Source of the DNA: Halobium salinum
GTDB lineage: Archaea > Halobacteriota > Halobacteria > Halobacteriales > Haloferacaceae
Direction of reading: 5' to 3'
DNA: 34,792 bases
Assembly: GCF_026586625.1 (NCBI RefSeq)
Contig: NZ_JAODIW010000006.1
Span: forward strand, 870,267 to 905,058
Shown here one piece after another: positions 3,457 through 18,823 of this stretch; position 1 is the first letter of the stretch, and each line of letters opens with the position of its first letter. The notes beneath the pieces were generated by a model. That model saw only the letters and a list, made by a program, of their open reading frames with translations. It was not told the origin of the DNA and did not search any database. The position numbers were made by a program, and so were the translations under genes.

Positions 3457-3464
3457 AACTATAC
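3457..3464 (+). promoter_or_regulatory. TATA box for the moaB-like gene
   Basis: AACTATAC is centred about 27 bases before the ATG at 3488, predicting a leaderless mRNA. Confidence 0.6.
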
Positions 3465-3487: not shown

Positions 3488-4201
3488 ATGAGCGAAGAGC
3501 CCCGAGAGCAGGAGCCGAACTACGAGGACCACCCGAGCCACCACGACGACCGCGGCGAGGGGGACGAGCGCGACGAGGAAAACGGCGAGGGCCGGGACGG
3601 GGAGCACGACCACGACGGGGAGCACGACCACAATGGGGAACACGACCACGGTCACGAACACGGCGAGTCGGGAACGCACGACCACCACCACCACGACGTC
3701 GAGGAACTCGGCGTCGCGGTCGTCACCGTCTCCTCGTCGCGCTCGCTCGAGGACGACGCCGCGGGCGACGCCATCGCCGCCGCCGTCGGGGACGCCGGCC
3801 ACGAGGTGGTCGTGCGGAACCTCGTCGCCGACGACTACGACGGGGTGCAGGGGGAGGTGAAGAACCTCGTCCGCCGGGACGACGTGGACGCCGTCGTCAC
3901 CACCGGCGGGACGGGCGTCACCCCCGACGACGTGACCGTCGAGGCGACGGAGTCGCTGTTCGACAAGGAACTCCCCGGGTTCGGCGAACTGTTCCGCCGG
4001 CTCTCCTACGACGAGGTCGGGACGCGCGTCGTCGGCACCCGGGCGGTCGCCGGCGTCGCCCGCGGCGTCCCCGTGTTCTGTCTCCCGGGGAGCGAGAACG
4101 CGGCGCGATTGGGGAGCGAGGAGATAATCGTCCCCGAGATGGGCCACCTCGCGGGGCTGGCGCGCCGGGACGAGGGCGAGGGAGGCGACGAGACGGAGTG
4201 A
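3488..4201 (+). CDS. MoaB/Mog-family molybdopterin-binding protein with His-rich N-terminal extension
   Basis: Encodes 237 residues. Residues 71 to about 225 form a MoaB/MogA domain: VAVVTVSSSR opens the fold, and TTGGTG at 138-143 followed by TPDD at 145-148 is the molybdopterin-binding signature. Members adenylate or bind molybdopterin during molybdenum cofactor synthesis. The first 70 residues are unusual: acidic, with 16 histidines, including three GEHDH units every six residues (38-54) and a run of four His at 66-69. This looks like a divalent-metal-binding tail, such as those on nickel or zinc chaperones. The usual haloarchaeal MoaB is, from memory, about 160-190 residues without it. 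A metal-storage or delivery role is inference. TATA at 3457-3464 supports the start. No other Moco genes are in the window. Confidence 0.88.
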   Translation: MSEEPREQEPNYEDHPSHHDDRGEGDERDEENGEGRDGEHDHDGEHDHNGEHDHGHEHGESGTHDHHHHDVEELGVAVVTVSSSRSLEDDAAGDAIAAAVGDAGHEVVVRNLVADDYDGVQGEVKNLVRRDDVDAVVTTGGTGVTPDDVTVEATESLFDKELPGFGELFRRLSYDEVGTRVVGTRAVAGVARGVPVFCLPGSENAARLGSEEIIVPEMGHLAGLARRDEGEGGDETE

Positions 4202-14439: not shown

Positions 14440-14775
14440 GTGGAGTCCGGCGGTGGTGGCTCTTGACTGGGACCCGTCTACTCTGACTCGCTCGAAGGCG
14501 CACGAAATCGCACACGTCCTCTCCGCACCGCACTTTGTCGATTATCCGGATTGGGAGTTCGCATATGAAATAGCGGCACGGAGCAGACGAACTCGACCTC
14601 TGCTGGGCCGGTTGTTGCTCGTTCCGGTCGTTTTGCACACGCTGAGTTAATTAGAGTGTGCAATTCGAGGTGTGTCCGTTTTGCGAAGTGAGTCCCCGTG
14701 GGGTTAGCTTGGGAGAAAACAAGTTGCGAGAAGGAGTGATTGCTATCGGTATAGAGTTACTCAGAGCGTAGCAGA
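14440..14775. other. Non-coding left edge of the accessory island
   Basis: A 336-base gap in which base composition shifts from G+C-rich to AT-richer, around 14480-14650. Short open frames exist on both strands, but none has a convincing composition or promoter. It contains the inverted repeat at 14633-14663 and two copies of CGTTTTGC about 50 bases apart (14629 and 14678). Confidence 0.6.
14633..14663. repeat. Perfect 8-bp inverted repeat with 15-base spacer
   Basis: TTGCACAC at 14633-14640 pairs with GTGTGCAA at 14656-14663. The spacer is AT-rich. It lies at the composition boundary of the island and could be a protein-binding or recombination site or a weak hairpin. Confidence 0.5.
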
Positions 14776-16485
14776 TTAGCCCGACACCGATTCAAAACTC
14801 TTGGAATAATTTCCATCATCATCCTGAGTAATTGCGTTGATGGTTTTGAGGGATTCGCATATGTTTTGAACTACATCAGCGGAAATTGTCGTATCTATCT
14901 CATCTAGTATATCGTTCGGGCTAAAGGGCCGTCTCATATGACGGCTGGCACGGATTACCGCTAAAACATGCTCTTCGTCTTTGTCTATCTTCGATGCGAT
15001 TCTTCGATCGCGTTCCTCCAGAGCCCCGTTGATACGGTCAATTTCCTCCAAGACTCTTTCTCTGATTTCTTCATTAGATGTGTAGTCATTACCGTACTCC
15101 TCAAGTTTGTCTTTGAATGTGACCAGTAAGGTAATAGTCCATTCTGCTTCATTCATGCTAGATGGCTCGTTGGCGATTTCGATAATTTGCTTGGAGACTG
15201 CATCAGACTCTGCAAATGCTTCTCCAATTAGCCCCATCGAAAGTAGTATTCTATCTGGATCTCCGCTGGGGATTTCTAATGTGGCATCTACAAGCGATCG
15301 AAGTGCACTATTAATGCTTCTCGCTGATCTGTAGTCCCCCTCCTCAATCGATTGAAGGGCGAAACTGAGGGAATAATTGACGAAATTCGTCAAAGGATCT
15401 GTGAACTCCCTTCCAGGCGAATTTATATCAGAGGCTATTGCACGGGCAATCTTGCTGTAACTGGTTACTACCGATTGAGACTGACTTCGACTGAAATGTG
15501 AAGCGTAATCTACTGTAATCCTTCCAAACAGCCGGATAAACACATTGGGAATCCCTCTGACCCGTTTTTCCTGCCAAGACAAAACGGATTCTCGGAGAAG
15601 ATAGACGACCTGCATCATAATCGCTTGATTGTCCTGCTTCAGACTTATCCGGAAAATCTGCTCATAAGGGCTATAAAGGTACCAGCATGCAAGTTGAGAG
15701 GTATCATGGGACGTTCTGAAGGTTCGATATTGGTTCTCAACTACTTCATCAACATGTTCACGGTACTTATCGAGCAGCTGTTTTGCGGACCGCGTATCCC
15801 CATCTCTAATTCTAGCTCTTTGGACATCTAAAAACGAGTCTACGGGATTTTCGTCGGCAACTTTGAGATATCTCACTTCCTGAAATATATTCTTTATTTT
15901 CTCTGCGTCATTGCTCTCGTATATAGTGGATTTTTGATCCTCGACTACTTTATCAATTCCATTGAGGAACTCAGGATCAATTTCTCCAATAATGGCACTC
16001 AGGACTTTTTCGGGTCTTAGAGCCTGAACTAGCCAGTACATATACGGGAATATGATTAAAATAGCCAATATGGACAATAACACGAACACAAAGTAAATAT
16101 ATAGTTGGATTCTCGGGGAAGAGAGTAAGATAACACCTATTGAAATGGCAAGTACGTGTGGGAAAAAGTGTGAAATTACTGGGGTGCTTCGGAGAATAGA
16201 CGTGTCTATCCGGTGGGAATAGCGGTTTGAAGCGAGTTGCACGCCTGTTATTGTCACTGTCAAACTTATGGTGAATAGAGTTATAACGCCGATGAGAAGA
16301 GGATTGACCACAGATCCTCGAGTTTCTGGGGTTGAAACGAATGTCGAAATGAGGGCAACAAATACTGCGATTAGGCAGACCGCTCCTGTAAGGCGATTTA
16401 TCGACAGGTGGTTGTTAATTAGATGGTGGAATCTGGACGCCGTTATTGAGTAGGAAGACCGCAGTTTCCTTCTCTCAGAGAACAT
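14776..16485 (-). CDS. Four-span membrane protein with long cytoplasmic region, DUF2254-like N-terminus
   Basis: A 569-residue protein of unknown function. Four hydrophobic spans lie at about residues 33-50, 60-83, 101-122 and 126-153. Between spans 2 and 3, VQLASNRYSHR recalls the QLAS-x-x-[FY]S-x-R pattern of DUF2254 membrane proteins (from memory). Residues 160-569 are soluble and mostly helical, with a charged coiled-coil-like stretch near 475-500. A C-terminal segment of about 65 residues, ending in an Asp-Asp-Asp-Gly turn, could be a winged helix. Base composition is much more AT-rich than the host (one sampled 60-base line, 14821-14880, has 24 G+C against 42 in a host line at 2401), indicating transfer. 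A TATA box at 16508-16516, centred 27 bases upstream, supports the ATG. The spans plus a large cytoplasmic region would fit a sensor or defence effector, but nothing proves that. Confidence 0.8.
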   Translation of the reverse strand: MFSERRKLRSSYSITASRFHHLINNHLSINRLTGAVCLIAVFVALISTFVSTPETRGSVVNPLLIGVITLFTISLTVTITGVQLASNRYSHRIDTSILRSTPVISHFFPHVLAISIGVILLSSPRIQLYIYFVFVLLSILAILIIFPYMYWLVQALRPEKVLSAIIGEIDPEFLNGIDKVVEDQKSTIYESNDAEKIKNIFQEVRYLKVADENPVDSFLDVQRARIRDGDTRSAKQLLDKYREHVDEVVENQYRTFRTSHDTSQLACWYLYSPYEQIFRISLKQDNQAIMMQVVYLLRESVLSWQEKRVRGIPNVFIRLFGRITVDYASHFSRSQSQSVVTSYSKIARAIASDINSPGREFTDPLTNFVNYSLSFALQSIEEGDYRSARSINSALRSLVDATLEIPSGDPDRILLSMGLIGEAFAESDAVSKQIIEIANEPSSMNEAEWTITLLVTFKDKLEEYGNDYTSNEEIRERVLEEIDRINGALEERDRRIASKIDKDEEHVLAVIRASRHMRRPFSPNDILDEIDTTISADVVQNICESLKTINAITQDDDGNYSKSFESVSG

Positions 16486-16507
16486 TTGTGAGAACTCCTG
16501 CTGGCGA

Positions 16508-16516
16508 ATCTATACT
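16508..16516 (-). promoter_or_regulatory. TATA box of the island membrane-protein gene
   Basis: The minus-strand AGTATAGAT is centred about 27 bases before the ATG at 16485. Confidence 0.55.
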
Positions 16517-16662
16517 CCTTTCGACTGAAAGATTGTCCGTCTCTGTATTCTATGCTAAATACACTAATGTAGGTGGCGGGATTTTATCATTTCTCAGGGA
16601 TAGACTAGTTGCTGTGGACGGGGGCGTATTTTGACTAGGTGGTCTTAACCACACCCTCTAAG

Positions 16663-16693
16663 CGAGAACCGGACAGCGGTCGTCCGGTTCTCG
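16663..16693. terminator. Perfect 12-bp hairpin, possible terminator
   Basis: CGAGAACCGGAC at 16663-16674 and GTCCGGTTCTCG at 16682-16693 are perfect inverted copies around a 7-base loop. The repeat lies just past the stop of the minus-strand gene ending at 16827, after a second hairpin. There is no strong T-run, so a recombination or protein-binding site is an alternative. Confidence 0.5.
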
Positions 16694-16701
16694 TTTGGGG
16701 T

Positions 16702-16745
16702 GGCTTCGGCTACCTCGAGTTGTGCAGAGAGAGGTAGCCAAAGCC
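16702..16745. repeat. 15-bp inverted repeat with one mismatch
   Basis: GGCTTCGGCTACCTC (16702-16716) pairs with GAGGTAGCCAAAGCC (16731-16745) at 14 of 15 positions around a 14-base loop. It stands directly beside the 12-bp hairpin at 16663-16693. Confidence 0.6.
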
Positions 16746-16826
16746 CTGCCCTCACAGGAGCAAAAACTGGTCAAAAACGCCGGAAAATAGAGGAAGAGGT
16801 AGCGATGCCTCTCACGAGTCGGCCCG

Positions 16827-18587
16827 TCAGTCGGCGGGTGAGTAGCCGTGTTCTGCCCAGTCGATTTGCTCGACTTTCTCGCGGTAGTCTCGAGTGCGAT
16901 CTCCACCACGCCGCATTGGTGTCACTTTCTGATCGAGGGAGCGGAACCGCCGGCTCTGGCCGCTGAGGTAGGTGACGCGGGCGTGAATTCCGTGAGTGGA
17001 ATTGAAGCCGAATGTCTCCTGATACCGAAGGCGAATCTCGTTCAGCACCTCACGAGCCTCCTCACTGTCTTTCGGCTGATAGCCAATCTCGAGGAGTTTC
17101 CGACAGTCGCCGGTATCCTCCTTCACCGTGATGTCGTACTCAGCGCGCACCTTGCTCCACGCGCTCCGCTGCTGGTCGCTAGCGGCGTCGGCTACTTCCA
17201 TTACTGTCTGCTCCATTGTTTGCTCGAAGCGGTTCTTCGCGGCGCGTAGGCGCTTCAGCATCAGCTGCTGTTGGTGCTTGCTAGCTATCTCTAAGTTCCC
17301 GTAGGTCTGTTCAACGAGTCCCTCCAAACGCTGCACAGAGCGGCGGATGGTCCGATACGAGCAGTCGATACTCTCGGCTGCACCCTGCATCGACTGTTGG
17401 CCGCCGTCTGTGAGAAGATGGTCGACCAGTTGTTCGTCGGAGTCGGTCATATCGCGCCAGAGACGCATCACACGCATCTCCTGCTCGTTCTCGACCTCCG
17501 GGAGCGGACAGTCGGTGATCCGGAGTGAGCGGCGGTGCTCGGCGCTCGCGTCGAAGTACTGGTCGCTCACGAGGTGGCTTCCGCCACGGATGGACAGGCC
17601 GGACCAGTCCATTATGTTGAATAGGGTCTCCTCGAGCTCACGAGTGAGATCCTCGAGATCGTCCCAGTATACGGTCTCATCGGTAACGCTCGTCTGGTAG
17701 GAGATCTCGAGCTTCGGGTGGTATAGAGGATCGTCCGGTTCGAATTTCTTGGGGTGTTCCGGGTAGTAATGCTTCACCTCCTTCCCGAACTTGTGGCCGC
17801 GCACCAGGTCAGCGGCGCGCTCGTCGGTGATAGTCGTGGTGACGTAGTAGCCGGGACGCTTTCGATGATCCTCGACGTGCTTCCGATATCCAGAACGGTC
17901 TGCTTCGAGCAGGTTGTGGGAGCGGGCTATCGGACCATCCGCGGCATAGAGAGAACCACTCTCCTCGCTATCAATACGAAGGTAAACGGCGGCGTCCCCA
18001 ATGTTACTCATCTCGTGAGGTTCCGAGAAGTACGAGGTGGAGCCACCGAACGCGGCCATAATGTGCCGGAGCAGTTCGTGATACTGGTCGTGGGGGATGT
18101 TCGATGCTTGAACCTGTGCGTCGATGTAGGGCTGACCGAGATCGGGGACGGACACCCGATTGCCGTTGCTAGTTAGGTTCGGCCAGCGGGGTCGGACAGT
18201 AATAGTTCCAGCTGCTCCCTTCCGTGCGCCCTTCGAGTCGGGCCGCCCCCCATTCCAGAGAGCGTCCTTTCGAGCGAAGTAGAAGCGGAACTCGGGTACG
18301 CTTTGCAGGTGATAGCTCTCGTGCTCCCACGGGTCTAACCCTCCTTTGTCGTAGTCGTAGCAGAGGATGTAATCATGGCCGTTGAAGGACATTTGAGCGG
18401 TTGGCTTCCCTTCGGTTTGCCACCCGTCGTACTCCTTTCTGATGGAGTCCATCCAGTAGTACGGCTTCAGCCCGTACTCGGTGAAGATGAAGTGTACGTC
18501 GAACTCGTGACACTGAGTGGTCGAGAATAACTCGACCGTCACCTCAACCACCTCCTTAGGACCGAAATGGCAGATGATTCCCCACAT
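16827..18587 (-). CDS. Haloarchaeal HTH-containing protein, DUF7845-like
   Basis: A 586-residue soluble protein. The opening (HEFDVHFIFTEYGLKPYYWMD, residues about 27-47), the RPRWPNL and ASNIPHDQYHELLRHIM blocks (132-178), and a central helix-turn-helix-like region (385-430, with AAESIDCSYRTIRRSVQRLEG) match a haloarchaeal family I recall as DUF7845. I know it from integrated elements; its biochemistry is unknown to me. The C-terminal part (430-586) is helical and basic, ending in a degenerate tail. The HTH suggests DNA binding. The usual family start seems to be close to CHEFD, so up to about 20 N-terminal residues may be untranslated; a TATA-like sequence only about 11 bases before the ATG at 18587 also hints at a later start. 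The gene lies 69 bases from the 3' end of tRNA-Pro. Confidence 0.75.
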   Translation of the reverse strand: MWGIICHFGPKEVVEVTVELFSTTQCHEFDVHFIFTEYGLKPYYWMDSIRKEYDGWQTEGKPTAQMSFNGHDYILCYDYDKGGLDPWEHESYHLQSVPEFRFYFARKDALWNGGRPDSKGARKGAAGTITVRPRWPNLTSNGNRVSVPDLGQPYIDAQVQASNIPHDQYHELLRHIMAAFGGSTSYFSEPHEMSNIGDAAVYLRIDSEESGSLYAADGPIARSHNLLEADRSGYRKHVEDHRKRPGYYVTTTITDERAADLVRGHKFGKEVKHYYPEHPKKFEPDDPLYHPKLEISYQTSVTDETVYWDDLEDLTRELEETLFNIMDWSGLSIRGGSHLVSDQYFDASAEHRRSLRITDCPLPEVENEQEMRVMRLWRDMTDSDEQLVDHLLTDGGQQSMQGAAESIDCSYRTIRRSVQRLEGLVEQTYGNLEIASKHQQQLMLKRLRAAKNRFEQTMEQTVMEVADAASDQQRSAWSKVRAEYDITVKEDTGDCRKLLEIGYQPKDSEEAREVLNEIRLRYQETFGFNSTHGIHARVTYLSGQSRRFRSLDQKVTPMRRGGDRTRDYREKVEQIDWAEHGYSPAD

Positions 18588-18655
18588 CTAATTGGAGAAA
18601 ATTGTAGAAGGAGACCGCTCAGGCCCCCGATAATGAAAGACGAAAGAAGCGGAAG

Positions 18656-18726
18656 TGGGACCGCTGAGATTCGAACTCAGGTCCTACCGACCCCATCGGC
18701 AGAGGATACCACTACCCTACGGTCCC
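18656..18726 (-). tRNA. tRNA-Pro (anticodon GGG)
   Basis: A 71-base cloverleaf read on the minus strand. The acceptor GGGACCG pairs with CGGTCCC. The anticodon stem TGCCG/CGGTA encloses loop ATGGGGT with anticodon GGG. The T arm is CTGAG-TTCGAAT-CTCAG, and the discriminator is A. CCA is not encoded. Its 3' end faces the accessory island, the usual arrangement for integration at a tRNA. Confidence 0.93.
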
Positions 18727-18823
18727 GCGTTTCGGAGAACGGCCGTACCCCGTTTAACGTCTTCGCTTCGTCGCGGGGCGGGGCCGTGCGAACAGGGCTC
18801 TCGCTTTCGACTTCGAGGCCCGC

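Follow-up and report, generated by a model that had tools for sequence, protein, structure and literature searches.

Why should an enzyme of molybdenum cofactor (Moco) synthesis begin with seventy residues of which sixteen are histidine? The question is raised by a moaB gene (3488..4201, + strand) in a 34,792-nucleotide stretch of the Halobium salinum genome (contig NZ_JAODIW010000006.1, positions 870,267 to 905,058; hereafter the window), an open reading frame with an ATG start coding for a 237-residue, His-tailed molybdopterin adenylyltransferase of the MoaB type. The answer offered here is that the tail may be a dispensable metal-binding arm, likely for zinc, and that a tail-less copy of the enzyme, found in related haloarchaea, may be a metal-sparing isozyme; taken whole, this reading is given an even chance of being right. 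What is new, as judged from alignments and gene order, is a second, tail-less MoaB clade that is linked to CobW/COG0523 genes. No description of a His-rich MoaB tail, or of MoaB in connection with zinc or COG0523, appeared among the papers listed by full-text searches of open-licence literature; MoaB is absent from the available text of PMC2770081 and not named in that of PMC6103462.

The Window Protein is an Archaeal MoaB

The molybdopterin-binding domain (residues 77-219; 3716..4144, + strand) matched PF00994 with 108.9 bits against a cut-off of 26.6 (E 2.3e-31). The best NCBIfam match, TIGR02667 MoaB, stayed under its own cut-off (162 vs. 222.4 bits), and the protein is an archaeal MoaB outside the TIGR02667 equivalog (proteobacterial MoaB). 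A Foldseek search with the model of the protein ranked MoaB structures first, with E values of 5.7e-16 for 1y5e, which we take to be MoaB of Bacillus cereus, and 2.1e-13 for 4lhb, MoaB of Pyrococcus furiosus; 1uux and 1uuy (Cnx1G) were also among the matches. In the AlphaFold2 model, 131 residues reached a pLDDT of at least 90, nearly all of them in the core, and the tail was disordered. The 46-row alignment behind this model, termed A1, also served for calling invariant columns. The preliminary description of an otherwise ordinary MoaB protein holds.

Asp115 (3830..3832, + strand) is, by alignment to 4lhb, the counterpart of Asp56 of P. furiosus MoaB, and the Gly-Gly-Thr-Gly motif G140 G141 T142 G143 (3905..3916, + strand) aligns with that structure as well; all five residues are invariant in A1. 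In the available sections of PMC3896444, Asp56 is a Mg2+ ligand, the Gly-Gly-Thr-Gly motif has an active-site role, and the P. furiosus enzyme is a hexameric molybdopterin (MPT) adenylyltransferase. It shares with the window protein the domain, the motif, the Mg2+-binding Asp and a His in a flexible arm (EHK), but its arm has about 11 residues and one His, as against 70 residues and 16 His in the window.

The tailed form is the single MoaB/Mog of the H. salinum genome, a second match being weak and partial (E 7.3e-6). Elsewhere in this genome, one MoaE, three PF00384, two CobW_C genes and one NikR_C gene were found; no CobW adjoined the NikR_C gene within the 3.2 kb read.

Composition and Distribution of the Tail

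The tail (residues 1-70; 3488..3697, + strand) holds 16 His and 27 Asp/Glu and is predicted to be disordered (pLDDT blocks of 48-64). Counting residues confirmed the 16 His, the three GEHDH units spaced by six and the run of four His reported in the preliminary description: His occupies positions 15, 18, 19, 40, 42, 46, 48, 52, 54, 56, 58, 64, 66, 67, 68 and 69, the GEHDH units begin at residues 38, 44 and 50, and HHHH spans 66-69. All 16 codons are CAC, and only two further His (105, 220) lie outside the tail. Since the GEHDH units are encoded by an 18-bp tandem repeat of 3.1 copies (3596..3650, + strand), their periodicity stems from local duplication and is not itself conserved. As in metallochaperones, the segment is both His-dense (16 of 70 residues) and, by its low pLDDT, flexible. 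Against the background of 81 haloarchaeal moaB neighbourhoods such density stands out: of 62 moaB ORFs picked (in the other neighbourhoods, the picker took another frame or none), 58 reached at least 8 His in a 45-aa window, and none of 798 other ORFs exceeded 7. A second tail of this kind in the H. salinum genome was considered and rejected; the sole other match, C14:13360, was weak (E 0.034), and the longest frame there holds at most 5 His per 45 aa.

One scan of a named genome collection yielded 80 loci, haloarchaeal by title except for one "uncultured archaeon", and MoaB was matched in 193 of 196 genomes sampled from the phylum. N-termini were read at the 80 loci, at 29 further haloarchaeal loci and in 60 cut-out regions, 22 of them haloarchaeal. 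Because the two collections overlap in some species (L075, for instance, is identical to L108), counts refer to loci and not to independent events. Relationships were defined with a quick tree, in which the clade of the window gene comprises 111 loci besides the window; the alignment of haloarchaeal homologues proposed earlier as a check thus revealed the tail to be widespread. In the 110 loci where it could be measured (L012 contains unread bases), the tail had a median length of 45 aa (8-125) and a median of 12 His (2-26), with at least 8 His in 98 of the 110. Overall, the tails consist of 26.8% His and 34.7% Asp/Glu; aliphatic and aromatic residues make up 8.7%, vs. 40.8% of the core, and Cys occurs once in total.

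Random variation of length and His content among close relatives, named in the preliminary description as a refutation, was seen in part: length varied freely, but His content kept a lower bound. Tails were 23-68 aa long with 8-23 His in Halorubrum (n = 17) and 21-71 aa long with 10-26 His in Haloferax (n = 9), none falling below 8 His. Other lineages show other repeat units (e.g., L012, L041, L080). Tail length probably drifts by local duplication while composition is held. A tail universal to haloarchaea was rejected, as all eight genomes of family f4 in the first sample were without a long tail in the copies read; five f4 genomes read later do carry a His tail (L198-L201, L206). Family f4 is, we presume by elimination, perhaps the Natrialbaceae, none of whose genera was seen among the 80 named loci.

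As a side observation, the extreme N-terminus MVDFQSRDTRR or a near variant precedes the acidic/His-rich stretch in 10 of the 80 named loci; loci of this type are L010, L011, L016, L020, L026, L028, L031, L032, L036, L047 and several G-genome loci.

The Junction Motif and the Arm of Ordinary MoaB Proteins

The tail meets the domain in a near-fixed motif, D-H-H-x-H-D (residues 65-70, here DHHHHD; 3680..3697, + strand). Among the 111 loci, His67 was present in all, His66 and Asp70 in 109 each and His69 in 104; His67 is also an invariant column of A1. Outside the order, 153 of 156 genomes of the phylum matched MoaB. The arms of the 38 relatives read from these were 7-22 aa long (36 with the start found) with a median of one His, and in 37 of the 38 a His lay within the last 12 residues before the domain. 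The His of the EHK/HK sequence in the solved MoaB structures of B. cereus, Sulfolobus tokodaii and P. furiosus aligns without gaps with His66; alignments with E. coli MoaB begin only at residue 76. In crystals of P. furiosus MoaB, disorder extends over residues 1-9 to 1-11 (PMC3896444, structural sections). The tail is thus an elaboration of an old flexible arm.

A Tail-Less Paralogue and Its Genomic Context

Many haloarchaea contain a second MoaB type, which is tail-less and recognisable by a short arm and the marker RRxTDxxGHDxIDPL. Together with three genes of family f36, it formed one clade of 50 rows with a support of 0.999 (FastTree), the rooting of this tree being unsure because the outgroup was not one clade. 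D115 and the GGTG motif were kept in 30 of 30 tail-less rows and in 111 of 111 main rows; as the tail-less copies keep the catalytic residues, the reaction probably does not require the long tail.

Linkage was counted in the best 30 tail-less loci from a search of 392 genomes. Within about 1.5 kb of the gene, CobW was found in 22 of the 30, NifU in 9 and ZnuA in 7, and longer flanks of the eight CobW-negative loci raised CobW to 23 of 30. Of fourteen further genomes, chosen because the tail-less gene was known there, eight had CobW and one (G523) had only ZnuABC, so that CobW lies near the tail-less gene in 31 of 44 genomes. A NikR_C-type gene was present in all 12 CobW-linked regions of at least 7.9 kb, and at L316 the frame for NikR directly adjoins that for the tail-less MoaB on the same strand. 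At the 80 tailed loci, with flanks of up to 6 kb a side and less in several, no CobW, NikR, ZnuA, ABC-3 or NifU gene was found.

At L226 (4795-13836), two CobW genes, divergent from a NikR_C regulator gene, are followed by tail-less moaB, NifU_N and the ZnuABC genes (ZnuA, ABC ATPase and ABC-3). This is likely a metal-limitation operon. Its ZnuA and its second CobW carry His-rich stretches of the same make-up as the MoaB tail. Near-identical MoaB copies (91-96%) were seen in genomes of different families, which suggests transfer.

In 25 of 25 genomes where both a CobW-linked and a main copy were read, spanning the families f1, f3, f7, f31 and f36, the main copy was tailed and the linked copy was not. 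The arms contained a median of 11 His (5-23) in the main copy vs. 2 (0-3) in the linked copy; the start used for L241 in this comparison was wrong, counting one residue, its arm having 24 residues and one His. We read the pairing as a stable association and not as 25 independent events. G460 holds the linked tail-less copy alone; among the copies read from several f4 genomes, intact active-site residues were present only in the tail-less one. By sequence, then, the relatives combine paralogue pairing, linkage to metal genes and retained catalytic residues, as a metal-sparing isozyme pair should, and the window genome has the tailed form only. Three points here go beyond the preliminary description: the conserved part of the tail is, by alignment, its six junction residues, ordinary MoaB already has His there, and a predicted tail-less isozyme exists.

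A further MoaB paralogue, found mostly in family f4, is degenerate. D115 was lost in 20 of 20 sequences, G141 was kept in 5 and G143 in 8; its tails are acidic with few or no His (L208, L209, L210, L212). It is likely a pseudoenzyme with a His-poor tail. Members include L207-L210, L212, L223 and L228, and in the two regions read (L223, L228) the neighbours of the ancestral locus (quinone-reductase family) are kept.

Gene Neighbourhood and Other Features of the Window

A Moco operon context of the tailed gene was rejected: its neighbours are a divergent quinone-reductase-like gene (40 loci) and ilvD, upstream of which it lies in 20 loci, and none of the neighbour clusters examined was recognised as a Moco gene. 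In the window, the sequence ACTATA, read as TATA-like, lies about 25 bases upstream of the moaB ATG (3458..3463, + strand) and presumably fits a leaderless transcript from a haloarchaeal promoter. A bacteriorhodopsin-like gene (PF01036; 4245-5093, − strand) is convergent with moaB. A stretch of low G+C content (14700-18730; 44-59% vs. about 70%), which contains a DUF7845 protein and an unknown protein and ends with tRNA-Pro (18655-18726), looks like an integrated element. A FolE2/MptA-type GTP cyclohydrolase gene (PF02649; 18824-19756, − strand) lies 15 kb from moaB, with no link shown; the FolE2 family is a named zinc-regulon member in the sections available of PMC2770081 and PMC6103462.

As a separate observation, 6 of the 392 genomes searched in the order encode a MoaB with an N-terminally fused Cupin domain, the two being joined by a short linker that contains His (L131/L178 in G116, L179 in G218, L180 in G204, L181 in G200, L182 in G213 and L183 in G209); in the tree of haloarchaeal MoaB, these rows diverge close to the base.

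Proposed Function of the Tail

The window protein would be the MoaB-type molybdopterin adenylyltransferase of H. salinum, with its first 70 residues forming a disordered, cytosolic arm rich in His, Asp and Glu. Each arm would hold several ions of a transition metal, most likely zinc, and there would be six arms per hexamer, if the enzyme is hexameric like that of P. furiosus. D-H-H-x-H-D would anchor the arm, elaborating the His already found in ordinary MoaB. As long as metal is plentiful, the tailed enzyme would work and its tail would serve as a metal buffer or store; under scarcity, the tail-less isozyme would take over, and MoaB would then neither take up nor need metal. Sequence comparison shows the tail, the conservation of the junction, the paralogue, the catalytic residues and the operon linkage; we infer metal binding, the identity of the metal, the switch and the hexamer. 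The predicted metal-binding nature of the tail is well supported by its composition, the near-fixed junction, the His-rich ZnuA and CobW and, above all, the operon linkage of the tail-less form. His-rich segments of low complexity, made up of His, Asp and Gly, are also known from proteins of metal uptake or from metal chaperones, among them ZnuA, CobW/COG0523, HypB and UreE; the MoaB tail differs from all these in sitting on an enzyme of cofactor biosynthesis not known to use such a metal.

Zinc would be the most likely metal. COG0523 genes cluster with zinc-free paralogues that replace their counterparts when zinc is limiting (PMC2770081 and PMC6103462, in the sections available), and because the CobW/NikR/ZnuABC setting of the tail-less gene matches this pattern, the tail would, most simply, bind metal and the short form would spare it. 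The zinc-sparing pairs treated in those sections (ribosomal proteins, FolE1/FolE2) are likewise isozymes with and without a metal-binding part, the metal-free one lying near COG0523 and importer genes. They differ in having a structural or catalytic metal site and Zur, whereas the MoaB case involves a dispensable disordered tail and a NikR-like regulator. The interpretation in the preliminary description thus finds partial support: of the roles put forward there, storage (or sparing) agrees best with the paralogue swap, protection (copper handling included) retains some plausibility, and nothing speaks for sensing. In its most specific form, MoaB would be a cytosolic zinc reservoir with many ions per hexamer, and a fall in zinc would lead the NikR-type regulator to turn on the tail-less isozyme together with the CobW GTPases and ZnuABC; this we put forward tentatively, at somewhat less than an even chance.

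Several observations weigh against a metal-binding tail with a metal-sparing counterpart. The window moaB has no operon link to metal genes, and CobW and ZnuABC are both absent around 12 of the 44 tail-less genes read. The tail-less arm retains a short D-H-G-H-D or D-G-H-D-C and so may still bind metal, and the tailed clade includes members with few His (2 in L107 and L133, 4 in L039). Moreover, as the tail-less genes form one clade, the 25 pairs reflect one or few events, with linkage partly inherited. As to the metal, nickel or cobalt is possible, because the operon regulator is NikR-like, with the four nickel ligands of NikR, and two of the operons with tail-less moaB hold a tetrapyrrole methylase (TP_methylase).

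That the same switch serves nickel or cobalt instead of zinc is considered unlikely. Beyond the PF08753 NikR_C regulator with its four ligands and the two TP_methylase genes, it draws on CobW proper serving cobalt (title of PMC7895991), but the importer of the operon is PF01297 ZnuA with ABC-3, and subsets of COG0523 are tied to zinc (PMC2770081, available sections). Copper or another thiophilic metal seems similarly doubtful. Here, Cu (or Zn) would be bound by the arm close to the MPT-AMP dithiolene, so that the arm takes over Cu released at Mo insertion or keeps competing metals away. The idea is prompted by 1uux/1uuy, which we take to be Cnx1G with copper-bound molybdopterin, of the same fold and reaction step and with a metal near the pterin product; Cnx1G differs in that it is not known to have a His tail and in that its metal sits on the pterin. 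The degenerate paralogue lost catalytic residues and His tail together, and the conserved junction His, whose counterpart in P. furiosus MoaB lies in an arm showing crystal disorder (PMC3896444, structural sections), could reach an active site. Yet the tail-less isozyme retains its active site although the long arm is missing, and its linkage is to CobW, NikR and ZnuA genes; its annotated neighbours include no recognisable copper gene, and there is a single Cys in 110 tails.

Junction motif and arm could, instead of storing metal, mainly be a docking or catalytic element of MoaB, the long tail being an elaboration without a role of its own. The His that closely precedes the domain in three solved MoaB structures and in 37 of the 38 relatives read from outside the haloarchaea, as well as the D-H-G-H-D or similar in tail-less paralogues, would suit this, but it covers the last six residues only, not the 8 or more His of 98 tails, and leaves the operon linkage of the short form unexplained; we regard it as rather improbable. 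A generic halophilic acidic disordered extension, with His incidental or tuned for solubility, accounts for the Asp/Glu content and for the acidity of other tail-bearing paralogues. It is very unlikely: the tails of the degenerate paralogue are acidic yet His-poor, which shows that an acidic tail need not be rich in His; none of the other ORFs nearby reaches this His content, and His67 is fixed in 111 of 111 loci. Equally little credence is given to neutral expansion of GAC/CAC-type codon repeats at a permissive N-terminus. The 18-bp repeat, the lineage-specific units elsewhere and the variable length within genera would suit such expansion, but composition is held (8.7% aliphatic/aromatic), the junction is fixed, and in 25 of 25 genomes it is the gene context that separates tailed from tail-less copies; slippage probably supplies length variation, not conservation.

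If MoaB is indeed a zinc reservoir, the pair would correspond, in archaea and without Zur, to the zinc swap known for ribosomal proteins, the enzyme exchanged being one of Moco synthesis. Moco synthesis would thereby be joined to the zinc (or nickel/cobalt) economy of archaea, and a likely archaeal metal-limitation operon would be named together with its regulator. The occurrence of one enzyme with and without the tail in one cell would, moreover, provide a natural pair in which the function of a His-rich tail is directly testable by deletion.
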